From: an uncultured Prevotella sp. | GTDB taxonomy: Bacteria > Bacteroidota > Bacteroidia > Bacteroidales > Bacteroidaceae | DNA: 64,000 nt | Assembly (NCBI GenBank): GCA_905234145.1 | Contig: CAJOGK010000025.1 | Span: 1 to 64,000 of the forward strand | Direction: 5' to 3' | Shown here: positions 26,953 through 32,106 of the stretch, piece by piece | Layout of the letters: the number at the start of each line of letters is the position of its first letter | How positions within the stretch are numbered: position 1 is the stretch's first letter | The notes under the pieces: model-generated | What the model was told of the DNA's origin: nothing | Database searches by the model: none | The model's input: the letters and a program-made list of their open reading frames with translations, nothing else | Translations under genes and position numbers: made by a program

Positions 26953-27291
26953 CTATTTTTTTAAATTTTTCTTATATTCTGATGGCGTTACACCGTATTT
27001 CTGTTTAAATAGTTGTCGGAGATTAGGCGCTCTGAAACCAACAGCACCTGCTATCTCACCAATAGTCATCTCAGGATGGCTATTAAAGAGTTCGTTGGCC
27101 TTCTCTATGCGAATCGCATTGATATATTGAGGGAACGTCATGCCATTGGCATTTAGGTTCAGTAACGCATTCAAACGATGGCGACTGATACCGAAACGTT
27201 CCATGATATTCTCGCGCATGAGGTCTACTTCAGCATAGAGCCGTTCCTCGCGGATAGTCGTGTCGATAGTTTCAAAGAGATCCTTTTTCAT
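26953..27291 (-). CDS. Stand-alone AraC-type helix-turn-helix protein
   Basis: A 112-aa DNA-binding protein consisting of little more than an AraC domain: IMERFGISRHRLNALLNLNANG (first HTH region) and MTIGEIAGAVGFRAPNLRQLFKQKYGVTPSEY (second HTH). There is no ligand-binding domain. It is clearly paralogous to the C-terminal 110 residues of the TPR regulator at 28430-30178, including the leading FxTID.xIR.E.LY segment. It starts 6 nt after the S66 gene and is probably co-transcribed with it, which suggests a small dedicated regulator or a modulator of the larger protein. Confidence 0.85.
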   Translation of the reverse strand: MKKDLFETIDTTIREERLYAEVDLMRENIMERFGISRHRLNALLNLNANGMTFPQYINAIRIEKANELFNSHPEMTIGEIAGAVGFRAPNLRQLFKQKYGVTPSEYKKNLKK

Positions 27292-27297
27292 TTTTGT

Positions 27298-28266
27298 CTA
27301 TTTTAGAAGTTGTTTTTCTGATTTGTCGATCCAATAATTATGTTGCTCTCCACGCATTTGGAAAGTCAGGGTAGCATGATCCTTCGTAACATCGAGTTCT
27401 ACAGGTGCACCCATAATTAATGGAATACAGGTGTTTCTACCAGCTGGGAAGCCACAGCAAACGGGTATTTCAGGATTTTGGATATGTTTTGATAACATTT
27501 CCTCTACGCTATCAAACTGAAGGTCATGCCTTATAGCGAAGAACTCACCAAGGATGATGCCCGTTACTCTTTCGAGGTCACCTTGCAAGCGGAGCATATA
27601 GAAAAGACGATCGATAGCATGAAGCGATTCTTCCACCTCTTCTATAAAGAGTATAATGTTATGTTCTTGAGAAATGTGATAACGTGTACCGGCAAGGGCT
27701 GAGAAACTGGAAAGATTACCTCCAACGAGATGGCCTGTGGCGCGACCTGGATGATTGTTCTTATTGCCAGGAATTTCGTATTTTGGGATAATACCAAAGA
27801 GAACATCTCGCAACTGGTTTGTATAGAGTTGCTGTCCGCCTGCTATCTGGAGTGCCATAGGTCCATGAATGCTCATCACGCCAGCTGCATTTTGTGCAGA
27901 CAATAGAATAGTGATATCACCATGTCCTATCAACCATTTTGGATGCTGGTTATACAATGCTAATGAAATACGAGTCAGAAGATGGATGGAACCATAGCCT
28001 CCACGTGAACAAATGATGGCTTTTATATCGTCGTTTTCAAGTGCCCATCGCAAATCAGCAGCCCTGTCTTTTACTGTTCCTGCATAGGCTTCAACATCTT
28101 GTTTATTTGTATTTTTACCAATTACAGGCACCAATCCCCAACTTTTGATAATTTCAGCGGTTTGTAATAGCACGTATTCATCTATCCAATAGGCTGGAGA
28201 GATGACGGCAACCTTGTCGCCTTTTTGCAGAAATTGAGGTTGTTTTATAACTTCTTCTTGATACAT
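27298..28266 (-). CDS. Peptidase S66 (LD-carboxypeptidase) homologue lacking the catalytic Ser and His
   Basis: S66 fold: KGDKVAVISPAYWI at the N-terminus, CSRGGYGSIHLL, the HGPM motif and the Glu-bearing LFIEEVEESLHAIDRL. Active members use Ser-Glu-His to cut murein tetrapeptides. Here the nucleophile position reads IGHGDIT instead of IGxSDIT, so Ser is Gly (codon GGT, one base from AGT). The His region reads FPAGRNTCIPLIMG, with Arg where GH is expected. Glu is kept. The protein is likely inactive as a peptidase and might bind peptide ligands. It has no signal peptide. It is co-transcribed with an AraC HTH protein. Confidence 0.8.
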   Translation of the reverse strand: MYQEEVIKQPQFLQKGDKVAVISPAYWIDEYVLLQTAEIIKSWGLVPVIGKNTNKQDVEAYAGTVKDRAADLRWALENDDIKAIICSRGGYGSIHLLTRISLALYNQHPKWLIGHGDITILLSAQNAAGVMSIHGPMALQIAGGQQLYTNQLRDVLFGIIPKYEIPGNKNNHPGRATGHLVGGNLSSFSALAGTRYHISQEHNIILFIEEVEESLHAIDRLFYMLRLQGDLERVTGIILGEFFAIRHDLQFDSVEEMLSKHIQNPEIPVCCGFPAGRNTCIPLIMGAPVELDVTKDHATLTFQMRGEQHNYWIDKSEKQLLK

Positions 28267-28295: not shown

Positions 28296-28330
28296 CAAAG
28301 GTACGTAAAAAAGGAGGAGAAATAAGCAAA
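28296..28330 (-). promoter_or_regulatory. Promoter of the S66-AraC operon
   Basis: TACCTTTG on the minus strand (28303-28296), with TTTG at 28330-28327 as a -33 candidate after a 23-nt spacer. The 22-nt element at 28328-28349 sits directly on its upstream side. Confidence 0.6.
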
Positions 28331-28349
28331 AAGTATGCACGCATTTGGG
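28328..28349 (+). promoter_or_regulatory. Candidate operator, copy 1 (AGTATGCACGCATTTGGG)
   Basis: 22 nt matching the copy at 30236-30257 except at one base. Its proximal edge is 25 nt from the TACCTTTG -7 box of the S66-AraC operon, exactly as in copy 2. It is also the left part of the palindrome at 28335-28370. Confidence 0.6.
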
Positions 28350-28370
28350 ACGTGTCCCAAATGCGTGCAT
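28335..28370 (-). terminator. Perfect 17-bp hairpin downstream of the TPR-AraC gene
   Basis: Two 17-nt arms (ATGCACGCATTTGGGAC and its complement) around a 2-nt centre. On the minus strand it is followed by ACTTTTTGC, so it can terminate the gene ending at 28430. It also overlaps the candidate operator, so it may act as a dimer binding site instead. Confidence 0.55.
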
Positions 28371-28429
28371 TTTAGGTGGGGTAAAAAACCGAATCCGATG
28401 TATCTGAAATGGTCTTTTCTGCCCCTTTT

Positions 28430-30178
28430 TTACATGTTTTGACGGTATTCTTGTGGTGTCATACCATATTTCTGCTTGAATTGTTCACGAAGGTTGGCAG
28501 GGGTAAAACCTACAGCCTCTGCGATAGCCGAAATGGTCATATTCGGATTATCGTGGAGCAATTTTATTGCCTCCGTCAGACGGATGGTATTGATGTAGCG
28601 TGTAAACGACTGACCATTTGCAGACTGGTTAAGCAGGTCGTTGAGTGCATGACGACTGATACCAAAACGATTGCAGATGTCCTGACGCTGAAGGTTCAGG
28701 TTAGAATAAAGGTGCTCATTTCGGATCGCCTGGTCAATAGTGACAAATAGTTCTGCACTGTCAGGTGAAATCGTGTCGATACTTTCTTTGGGCTCGTTGG
28801 TATCGTCAGTATCTTCTGCTTCTTCGTCAGGCAGTTCTGGCTGCATGCCGTTGATGATGCGTACCAATACACGATTTTTTTCGCTGATGATTTTCTGTTG
28901 GCGGCGATAGTAGAAAGAGACAACAGATAAGATGATCATCAGGAGCACAATGGTACCAATAATGATATTCTTGATTTCATGGGTGCTCTCTGCCTGCTGG
29001 ATAATAAGTTCCTGCTCTTTGGCATGATAGCGTGCTGCATTTTCGTGCGCCTCGCTGGCAATCAGACTATCACTTAGCACCTTGCTTAACTGGGCATAGC
29101 GTTGCATCAGGTTTAGGGCCTCGACGGTATGTCCCTTTGCTTTTGCTGCAACAGCCTGATCGCGAAGCAGGATAGCGTAATGTTCGTTCAGGGTATCAGT
29201 GCCCATACGTCGTATCCATTCGCCGCTGGTGGCCATGGCTTCATCGTACATGCCTAATAACATCTGTGCAGGGATAATCATTTTGCGGGCACTGAACGTT
29301 TTTCCGTAATTGCTTTGGTCAAAAAGCGTCAAATATTCATGGGCTTTTTGGGTATCAGAGCCTGCATAAGCTATAGCTAAAAAACCATAGGCTTGTGCAC
29401 GACTGAAATCGATGTAGCGCTCACGGTCACTGGGATTGTCACTCCACGACAATCGATAGCTGTCTTCTGCATAGTCGCTGGCATGCTGCTCATAGTGATC
29501 TAGTCGAGCAAGGATACTTTGGGCTAATGGAATAACCTCAGCAGGCATGTTTTGTTCGTTAAGGACGTTGATCTTACGTTTAACAGCGATAATAAAGGCA
29601 TCCATACGATCGATGCTGCCAGGTTTGTCGAGTTGACGTATACAATCATCGAGTTTGGCAATACCTTCGTCGGTTTGTCCCAAATGTGTCATCATCAAAC
29701 CGATTTCTGCTTCAGTACGTAGCAGTTCCACCTCTTCGTTCTGTTCCCGACATAAGTCTGCCTTTTGAATAGACCAGTACAGATAGGCCTTATTGTCATA
29801 TTTGTATCGACTGATCGAAATGAGCATGTTAAGTATAGCCCCTTTATTGTTTGGGTCATTCTTAACAGAATCATGTTGTAGCAGTTCTTTGCAGAGGATA
29901 AGGGCTGAGTCAAGATGTTGTTCTGTAAGTGACTTGCTGTAGATATTGGCTCGGATATATTTTTCTTTATATTCGTCAATGTTTCCAAGCTTTACAGCCG
30001 AGTCGAGCAGGATAAATGCTCGCTCAGGGTTAGTGGCACAGGCCACTAATATAGAGTCTTCTTGATAGGGTGTATCACCCAAGTTTGCTATCTTTTTTAC
30101 TGGCCTGCTTTCATCGCAACCAGCAAAGATTATTATAGCAATAGCTAGTATTATAATAAGATGTATGGTCTGTTTCAT
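28430..30178 (-). CDS. Membrane-bound TPR sensor with C-terminal AraC-type DNA-binding domain
   Basis: A one-component trans-membrane regulator. An N-terminal lipoprotein-like signal (AIAIIIFAGCDE) is followed by residues about 40-390 of TPR-like helical repeats. One membrane helix lies at about 401-420 (IIIGTIVLLMIILSVVSFYY). An acidic cytoplasmic linker (ELPDEEAEDTDDTNEPKE) leads to an AraC HTH domain at about 480-582 (RFGISRHALNDLLNQ, AEAVGFTPANLREQFKQKY). No kinase domain is present, so signal passes from periplasm to DNA within one chain. It is paralogous to the 112-aa protein at 26953. The shared upstream element suggests it controls itself and the S66 operon. Confidence 0.85.
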   Translation of the reverse strand: MKQTIHLIIILAIAIIIFAGCDESRPVKKIANLGDTPYQEDSILVACATNPERAFILLDSAVKLGNIDEYKEKYIRANIYSKSLTEQHLDSALILCKELLQHDSVKNDPNNKGAILNMLISISRYKYDNKAYLYWSIQKADLCREQNEEVELLRTEAEIGLMMTHLGQTDEGIAKLDDCIRQLDKPGSIDRMDAFIIAVKRKINVLNEQNMPAEVIPLAQSILARLDHYEQHASDYAEDSYRLSWSDNPSDRERYIDFSRAQAYGFLAIAYAGSDTQKAHEYLTLFDQSNYGKTFSARKMIIPAQMLLGMYDEAMATSGEWIRRMGTDTLNEHYAILLRDQAVAAKAKGHTVEALNLMQRYAQLSKVLSDSLIASEAHENAARYHAKEQELIIQQAESTHEIKNIIIGTIVLLMIILSVVSFYYRRQQKIISEKNRVLVRIINGMQPELPDEEAEDTDDTNEPKESIDTISPDSAELFVTIDQAIRNEHLYSNLNLQRQDICNRFGISRHALNDLLNQSANGQSFTRYINTIRLTEAIKLLHDNPNMTISAIAEAVGFTPANLREQFKQKYGMTPQEYRQNM

Positions 30179-30203
30179 ATTATGACATGTTCATTTCAGC
30201 GCA

Positions 30204-30233
30204 CAAAGGTAAGAAGAAAAATCAATATTCAAG
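30204..30233 (-). promoter_or_regulatory. Promoter of the TPR-AraC regulator
   Basis: TACCTTTG on the minus strand (30211-30204), the same -7 sequence as the S66 operon, with a weak TTG about 18 nt upstream. A poor -33 fits an activator-dependent promoter. Confidence 0.5.
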
Positions 30234-30235
30234 AA

Positions 30236-30257
30236 AAAAAGTATGCACTCATTTGGG
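30236..30257 (+). promoter_or_regulatory. Candidate operator, copy 2 (AGTATGCACTCATTTGGG)
   Basis: Differs from copy 1 at one of 22 positions and lies at the same 25-nt offset from the same -7 sequence. Here the second palindrome arm is absent. Confidence 0.6.
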
Positions 30258-30286
30258 CTTCGTTAAATATTTTTTTGTAGATAATA

Positions 30287-30318
30287 TTTGGTGGGGTAGA
30301 GGGTTTTTTGTAATTTTG
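30287..30318 (+). promoter_or_regulatory. Promoter of cbiG-cbiF
   Basis: TTTG (30287-30290), a 20-nt spacer and TAATTTTG (30311-30318), 19 nt before the ATG at 30337. No riboswitch lies between. Confidence 0.75.
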
Positions 30319-30336: not shown

Positions 30337-32106
30337 ATGAAGATAGCAATTATTCAAATCAGCGAGGCTGGAAGCGAAATCGCCTCTACCATCAGAAAAG
30401 AACTCGATGCCACGATGATTCAGCGCACAGAAGTTGGCAAGAAATGGAAGCAATACGATGCTTTTATCTTTATCGGTGCGATGGGTATCTGCGTAAGGAC
30501 GATTGCACCTTATATTAAAGATAAGCACGAAGATCCTGCTGTGGTGTGTATCGACAGTCTGGGACTGAATGCTATTTCCGTGTTGAGCGGTCATGTAGGA
30601 GGGGCCAACAATCTGACGCACGAGGTGGCCGCCTTGATAGGTGCGCGAGAGGTGATTACCACCCAAAGCGACAATGCCGGACTATGGGCGCTCGACACTT
30701 TTGAGGCCCGTTTTGATTGGCCAGTTGCCAGCGATGTGGAAGATATGAACGATTGCATCTTTGCCTTCGTTAATCGCGAACCAACGGCCTTGCTGTTGGA
30801 AGTGCGCGATGAAGGGACTGACTATCTGGAGGCTACAAAACCAGATCATGTAACCATCATTGATAGTATTAGCGAGGCTGATGCCAATAAATATAAGTTG
30901 CTGATTATTGTGTCGCCATTTAATCGCTCTGCACCAGAGGGTATGCTTGAGTTGCATTTTGTGCCCATGGTGGGAACGGTAGGTTTCGGATTGGCACACG
31001 AACCTGACGACTATGAGGAAATTTACGACCAGATAGATGAGGCGTTTGCCCTTCGAGGGGTTTTGCCTTGTGCCCATCGCTATTGTACCATCGATGTCAA
31101 GAAGGATGAACCTTTCGTGGATATGCTGGTGATGGAATACGAGGAAGAAGTGAAGTTCTTTACAGCAGAAGAGCTCTCAACAGTAGAGGTGCCTAACCCT
31201 AGCGAAACCGTTCAGAAGCATGTGGGTACGCCCAGTGTTTGTGAAGCTGCTGCTATCCTGGGTTCGAATAATGGTAAGTTGATTCTCTCTAAAATAAAAG
31301 GCAAGAATTGGACTGCTGCCCTTGCTATCGACTACAAGGGTCATATAGAAATCGTAGGGGCAGGCCCTGGTGCTCCTGATCTTGTATCTGTCCGAGGCCG
31401 TAAGATGCTCGAAAGGGCCGACCTTATTTTATATGCAGGCTCGCTGGTGCCAAAGGCTTTGACGGAGTGCCATAAGCCAGGAGCAGTCGTGCGTTCATCA
31501 GCTGACATGGCACTCGAAGAACAGTGTGAGCTGATGAAAAAGTTCTATGACCAAGGTAAATTCATTGTGCGCCTCCATACTGGCGATCCCTGTATCTTTG
31601 GTGCCATTCAGGAACAGATGGCTTTCTTCGATGCCAATCACATGGAATACCACATCACCCCAGGCATCTCCTCCTTCCTCGCTGCAGCAGCCGAGTTGCA
31701 GAGCCAGTTCACGATTCCTGAGCGCTGTCAGACGATTATCCTCACGCGTGGCGAAGGTCGGACCCCTATGCCAGAGAAAGAACAGCTCCACCTATTGGCG
31801 AAGAGCCAGAGCACGATGTGCATCTTCCTCTCTGCCGCCATCGTGGATGATGTACAGCGCGAACTGCTTCAGGAGTATCCAGAAGATACGCCCGTAGCTG
31901 CGTGCTATCACCTTACCTGGCCTGACCAGAAGATCTATCGAGGCAAATTAAAGGATTTGGCGAAGATTGTCCACGACAACAAGCTGACTCTCACCACGAT
32001 GCTCGTCGTGGGCGAGGCCATCGACAACCGCCAAGGCCTCTCCGAGCTCTACTCCAAGCACTTCACCCACCTGTTTAGAAAAGGTGACGACGAGCAACCG
32101 TCATAG
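30337..32106 (+). CDS. Cobalt-precorrin-5A hydrolase / cobalt-precorrin-4 C11-methyltransferase fusion (CbiG-CbiF)
   Basis: Two consecutive steps of anaerobic corrin synthesis in one chain. Residues about 1-340 are CbiG (FIFIGAMGICVRTIAPYIKDK, VLSGHVGGANNLTHEVA, TQSDNAGLWALD, then the C-terminal region with SVCEAAAILGS). Residues about 345-585 are the CbiF/CobM methylase (IVGAGPGAPDLVSVRGRKML, LILYAGSLVPKAL, LHTGDPCIFGAIQEQM, TPGISSFLAAAAEL). CbiG is specific to the cobalt-early route. The gene is tail-to-tail with the VirE-like gene, 6 nt away. Confidence 0.92.
   Translation: MKIAIIQISEAGSEIASTIRKELDATMIQRTEVGKKWKQYDAFIFIGAMGICVRTIAPYIKDKHEDPAVVCIDSLGLNAISVLSGHVGGANNLTHEVAALIGAREVITTQSDNAGLWALDTFEARFDWPVASDVEDMNDCIFAFVNREPTALLLEVRDEGTDYLEATKPDHVTIIDSISEADANKYKLLIIVSPFNRSAPEGMLELHFVPMVGTVGFGLAHEPDDYEEIYDQIDEAFALRGVLPCAHRYCTIDVKKDEPFVDMLVMEYEEEVKFFTAEELSTVEVPNPSETVQKHVGTPSVCEAAAILGSNNGKLILSKIKGKNWTAALAIDYKGHIEIVGAGPGAPDLVSVRGRKMLERADLILYAGSLVPKALTECHKPGAVVRSSADMALEEQCELMKKFYDQGKFIVRLHTGDPCIFGAIQEQMAFFDANHMEYHITPGISSFLAAAAELQSQFTIPERCQTIILTRGEGRTPMPEKEQLHLLAKSQSTMCIFLSAAIVDDVQRELLQEYPEDTPVAACYHLTWPDQKIYRGKLKDLAKIVHDNKLTLTTMLVVGEAIDNRQGLSELYSKHFTHLFRKGDDEQPS

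Follow-up and report, generated by a model that had tools for sequence, protein, structure and literature searches.

A predicted palindromic operator and its half-site at two promoters of a Prevotella TPR-AraC locus

A 22-nt word occurs at two promoters of an AraC-linked locus in an uncultured Prevotella sp. and, judging from the DNA, makes up a single arm of a palindromic operator rather than a self-standing 22-nt unit. With a probability of about 0.82, we read the element as the operator of a dedicated, class-I-like AraC-type activator system, consisting of a membrane-spanning regulator with a TPR sensor (TPR-TM-AraC, here TPR-AraC) and a small AraC partner. The palindrome is conserved among Prevotella genomes, keeps a fixed spacing to the -7 box and is linked to AraC genes.

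The two promoters and their shared element

The locus lies in a window of 64,000 nt (the whole stretch of DNA analysed) from a 3.1-Mb, 85% complete genome. The TPR-AraC regulator (28430-30178, minus strand, 582 aa) has a signal/lipobox-like N-terminus, a TPR superhelix, a long helix that probably crosses the membrane and a C-terminal AraC domain (from about residue 474 to 582). The first gene of the operon, also on the minus strand, encodes a peptidase of family S66 (27298-28266, 322 aa, LD-carboxypeptidase-like, with Peptidase_S66 and S66C matches), and a small stand-alone AraC domain (26953-27291, minus strand, 112 aa) follows 6 nt past it. The AraC domain (HTH_18/HTH_AraC) scored above the Pfam cut-off of 33.6 in both regulators, with 59.7 bits for the TPR-AraC protein (P0001; HTH_18, E of 3.5e-16) and 54.8 bits for P0003. 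Only AraC families matched P0001 at E ≤ 0.001, and no Pfam TPR match was found in its N-terminal half. Its AlphaFold model showed an all-helical superhelix, a long helix and then the AraC domain, and the best PDB fold matches of the model were TPR domains (LGN, consensus TPR and RapF). A hydrophobic stretch near residues 403-422 is located within the one long predicted helix (residues 351-443). The small AraC protein and the AraC domain of the TPR-AraC protein are 56% identical, and their recognition helices are nearly equal (ISRHRLNALLN/ISRHALNDLLN and NLRQLFKQKYG/NLREQFKQKYG), so both proteins may bind the operator.

The two copies of the word, AAAAAGTATGCACGCATTTGGG (28328-28349, plus strand) at the S66 promoter and AAAAAGTATGCACTCATTTGGG (30236-30257, plus strand) upstream of TPR-AraC, were identical at 21 of 22 positions, which bears out the near-identity, one base apart, described in the initial annotation. 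The same annotation had placed both copies 25 nt from an identical -7 box; this holds as a coordinate difference, with 24 nt intervening at both promoters. The boxes, TACCTTTG on the minus strand, are located at 28296-28303 for S66 (CAAAGGTA on the plus strand) and 30204-30211 for TPR-AraC, and their sequence fits TAnnTTTG, the -7 consensus of sigma-ABfr, the main Bacteroides sigma factor (PMC7366714). The core of the word, with N at the variable base, had three matches in the window at up to three mismatches (0.18 expected), and the third was the opposite arm of a palindrome at the S66 promoter. In the whole genome the word was confined to its two window copies. A half-site followed by N32 and TAnnTTTG gave exactly two genome matches, both with 0 mismatches, and no others up to three mismatches; the reversed control of this pattern also gave two matches in the same genome. 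A near-match at G000:C16:50591 had a low score and lacked a -7 box, and was dismissed as chance. Beyond both elements, GGTGGGGTA recurs at 28375-28383 and 30290-30298 (a 15-nt match, 87% identical) at slightly different distances.

At the S66-small AraC operon, the predicted operator is a 34-bp palindrome, TGCACGCATTTGG-N8-CCAAATGCGTGCA (28336-28369), 32 nt from the -7 box. The symmetry is perfect over 28335-28370, with 17-bp arms at 28335-28351 and 28354-28370, and the first copy of the word corresponds to the promoter-proximal arm plus an A-tract. The TPR-AraC promoter has only the promoter-proximal arm, the half-site CCAAATGAGTGCA (30244-30256, read on the minus strand), also 32 nt from its box; a distal arm was not recognisable there, as symmetry holds at 4 of 13 positions when 30244-30277 is taken as the frame. 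A search of the genome for other outer-arm variants found nine TTTGG-N8-CCAAA sites, and the window site was the only symmetric one. On the far side of the half-site, a cobalt-precorrin 5A hydrolase and precorrin-4 methyltransferase fusion (30337-32106, plus strand) is divergent from TPR-AraC. The box of this cobalamin gene, TAATTTTG (30311-30318), lies 33 nt from the projected end of the absent second arm and is possibly a trace of a formerly two-sided operator.

Conservation and fixed spacing in the genus

The initial annotation had proposed a motif search upstream of other TPR-AraC genes. In a search of the genus that allowed up to three mismatches, the palindrome was found in 31 of 398 genomes, and the reversed-pattern control gave 0. 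Orthologous loci in Prevotella genomes carried the TPR-AraC, small AraC and S66 genes in varying order, with the palindromes at their promoters and beside all three kinds of gene. In the isolate Prevotella sp. tf2-5 (L007), the locus has two full sites. The palindrome was conserved between species whose proteins are 55-65% identical; the compared genomes are related to each other, and the counts are not independent. At the family level, where 399 genomes were searched, one more genome came up, G504, whose locus is also present in G031. Three-mismatch matches in G337 and G395 had no box at 31-32 nt and were treated as chance.

The spacing was kept with high precision. In 59 of 63 distinct sites, exactly 31 or 32 nt separated the arm from TAnnTTTG on the side of the downstream gene, compared to a chance expectation of 0.1 of 63 from the background frequency. 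The promoter-proximal arm was nearly invariant over these sites and the distal arm variable. The first gene downstream encoded a small AraC protein in 25 cases, S66 in 11, TPR-AraC in 10 and others in 13. Cassettes between small AraC and S66 included a GH3-family protein and a further AraC-like protein, and the genes following sites elsewhere encoded BspA-type leucine-rich surface proteins, a very large fibronectin/dockerin protein, a metallophosphatase, a periplasmic-binding-protein-like protein and an S8 protease. Several rumen-type genomes encode, directly past the second operator, a 118-aa protein that belongs to no known family (L096:699-1055); it is flanked by small AraC and TPR-AraC.

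A dispersed genomic repeat, which the initial annotation had considered as a possible undoing of its proposal, is not what the genome holds, since the word has only two sites in it. We found nothing in favour of a chance or repeat origin, whose probability is negligible; the two genome sites, the conservation across species and the reversed controls of 0 for the palindrome and core searches in the genus refute it.

The palindrome could instead act as RNA, as an intrinsic terminator or hairpin of the upstream tpr-araC gene. In the window, a perfect 16-17 bp stem is followed by the T-rich ACTTTTTGCT on the minus strand and folds as RNA into a strong hairpin (-27.8 kcal/mol, z of -8), and many sites follow the tpr-araC stop codon at a distance of about 28 nt. 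However, the -7 box keeps a constant 31-32 nt from the palindrome, whereas the distance to the upstream gene ranges from -17 (overlapping the coding end) to more than 700 nt, and thus the place of the palindrome is set by the promoter. One palindrome (L099:1181-1214) separates S66 from divergent S8-protease/TPR-AraC genes and has a box on either side, at 32 and 30 nt, and the TPR-AraC promoter of the window retains the spacing despite its single arm. The distal arm also varies without compensation at several positions (for example, T or C at position 1 against an invariant A), and Rfam gave no match for the palindrome. We therefore regard an RNA element in place of a DNA operator as very unlikely, although some copies may in addition act as terminators of the upstream gene.

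One position behaved differently. Position 6 of the arm covaried with its partner, position 29 of the 34-mer (28341 and 28364 in the window), with G:C in 31 sites, T:A in 8 and also A:T, and none of 2000 shuffles of the 63 sites was as strong. This covariation was present even among sites of one genome. It is not demanded by independent half-sites and counts against the reading as an operator of two half-sites; it might stem from hairpin-templated repair or from a paired-subunit effect.

The AraC domain as the probable partner of the site

Over the 398 genomes, an AraC domain of the TPR-AraC type and the palindrome coincided in 28, with the domain only in four and the site only in three (Fisher P of 2e-35, uncorrected for relatedness). 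Two of the site-only genomes had three mismatches and no box, and in the third, G268, a 56-aa AraC remnant adjoins the site. The G268 palindrome (L091:9946-9979) is perfect, has a box and lies upstream of a methyltransferase gene; this genome is 99% complete, has no close AraC domain and apparently holds a decayed locus. Two natural domain swaps separated the sensor from the DNA-binding part. In G082, the sensor is 73-76% identical to those of three site-bearing relatives, the AraC domain is only 31-34% identical, and there is no site. In G313, the sensor is 25-30% identical, the AraC domain 51-56%, and a site is present right after the gene. These swaps indicate that the site goes with the AraC domain and not with the sensor. 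No clear site accompanies the related AraC domains of G038, G081 and G291:C2.

Some sites are far from any AraC gene of the TPR-AraC type (G115 and G172, both draft genomes), as would be expected if an unrelated regulator bound the site and controlled the locus by happenstance. We consider this improbable, because the presence of the site tracks the AraC domain through both swaps and the site variants differ among AraC-domain subfamilies.

The initial annotation had proposed a small AraC-linked regulon, and this part is strongly supported by the same promoters across species, the fixed spacing and the tie to the AraC domain; its choice of unit, which missed the palindrome, needed correction. 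It had also named the membrane regulator as the probable activator of itself and of the S66 operon. The regulon so drawn is largely right, but the proposal passed over the half-site at the regulator's own promoter and the second regulator. From their sequences, TPR-AraC and small AraC appear equally plausible as binders, so the membrane regulator is not the only candidate. Since the TPR-AraC promoter has only a half-site, self-activation is the weaker inference compared to activation of the S66 operon.

In the mechanism that we propose, the TPR-AraC sensor would lie outside the inner membrane, connected by one membrane-crossing helix to a cytoplasmic AraC domain, and TPR-AraC and small AraC would share the 13-bp arm as their binding target. 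Two subunits may sit head to head on ATTTGG-N8-CCAAAT, one per arm, with the promoter-proximal arm ending 31-32 nt upstream of the predicted sigma-ABfr -7 box. The operator would then adjoin a weak -33 region and be centred about 61 bp ahead of the transcription start, where class-I-like activation would be possible. A signal reaching the TPR domain would switch the S66-small AraC operon strongly on through the full palindrome and tpr-araC more weakly through the half-site. The small AraC protein, produced upon activation, may feed back on the same sites as an amplifier or a brake.

From the operator position we infer activation rather than repression. Autoregulated regulators are often repressors, and position by itself is no proof of activation, so that a bound dimer might block the promoter until a signal releases it. 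Nevertheless, the whole operator is located upstream of the -7 and -33 region, placed precisely at 31-32 nt, and the promoters bearing it have no clear TTTG -33 element, as is typical of activator-dependent promoters. AraC-type domains are also mostly activators, and repression through the same operator seems unlikely.

Related candidate operators and known systems

Like AraC/XylS activators (HTH_18, PF12833), both window regulators have a C-terminal double-HTH AraC domain, and the site is of the upstream activator type, near the core promoter, with apparent autoregulation predicted from the DNA. Classical AraC sites are direct repeats, whereas the window arms are inverted with an 8-bp spacer; furthermore, a TPR domain, predicted to be tethered in the membrane, takes the place of the cupin as sensor in the window. 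In Bacteroidales, the hybrid two-component systems (HTCS) of Bacteroides combine an extracytoplasmic sensor, a membrane-crossing segment and a C-terminal AraC output, and control adjacent genes. The predicted layout of TPR-AraC resembles theirs in sensor, membrane segment and C-terminal AraC output, but the 582-aa protein has no histidine kinase or receiver domain, its model consisting of TPR, one long helix and AraC. TPR-AraC would work like one-component membrane activators of the ToxR/CadC type, which place an outside sensor, one membrane segment and a DNA-binding domain in a single protein. Their DNA-binding domain is an N-terminal winged helix, as opposed to the C-terminal AraC-type domain of TPR-AraC, which is not a member of that class.

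No description of TPR-AraC operators in Prevotella or Bacteroidetes was found in the open literature searched, and the operator looks like the landing pad of a sensor-activator family without earlier description. At least a partial match to the TPR-AraC protein was present in 145 of 150 genus genomes, mostly via the AraC domain, and such regulators abound in gut and rumen bacteria of the Prevotella type. The site provides a sequence rule that predicts TPR-AraC targets from DNA alone, and the two-promoter system offers a clean test of site sharing by a membrane-held AraC protein and its soluble copy.

Another 12 loci encoding TPR-AraC proteins or AraC domains were selected solely for the similarity of their AraC domains. 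Nine of them carry a symmetric 34-mer built in the same way, in most cases just downstream of the gene, with ATTTGG-N8-CCAAAT constant and the outer 7 bp differing. The arms read TGTGTCA-ATTTGG in G250, G360 (twice) and G392, GGTGTAC-ATTTGG in G321 and G128, TGCGTAC-ATTTGG in G140, TGCGTAA-ATTTGG in G071 and CAGGCAA-ATTTGG in G084. All nine sites of these paralogous subfamilies had a -7-like box 32-33 nt away, which reads TAnnTTTG, GACCTTTG or, in one weaker case, GAATTTTA. The outer bases varied along with the recognition helices (SRHxLN, RREVL or DRHxLN; NLRxxFK, RNLRRLF or RYLRRLF). In the genus search, ATTTGG-N8-CCAAAT-N37-40-TAnnTTTG occurred in 38 genomes, and the reversed control gave 0.

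On balance, we lean towards a large Bacteroidales TPR-TM-AraC family with one modular operator, in which conserved AraC contacts would read the constant core, variable recognition residues would read the subfamily-specific outer 7 bp, and a fixed step of 31-33 nt would lead to the -7 box. Each subfamily's regulon would then be insulated, and a sensorless AraC protein in the target operon would serve as an amplifier or brake on the same site. As a natural set of AraC domains, each with its matching operator, these loci provide a means to work out how residues read bases. Two other perfect palindromes, in G115 (L188:7514, AGCGTTC-ATTTGG) and G172 (L187:8105, GCGGCAA-ATTTGG), had no close AraC gene of the TPR-AraC type within about 7 kb in these draft genomes, with a distant one in G172 only; their boxes lie at 30-31 nt.
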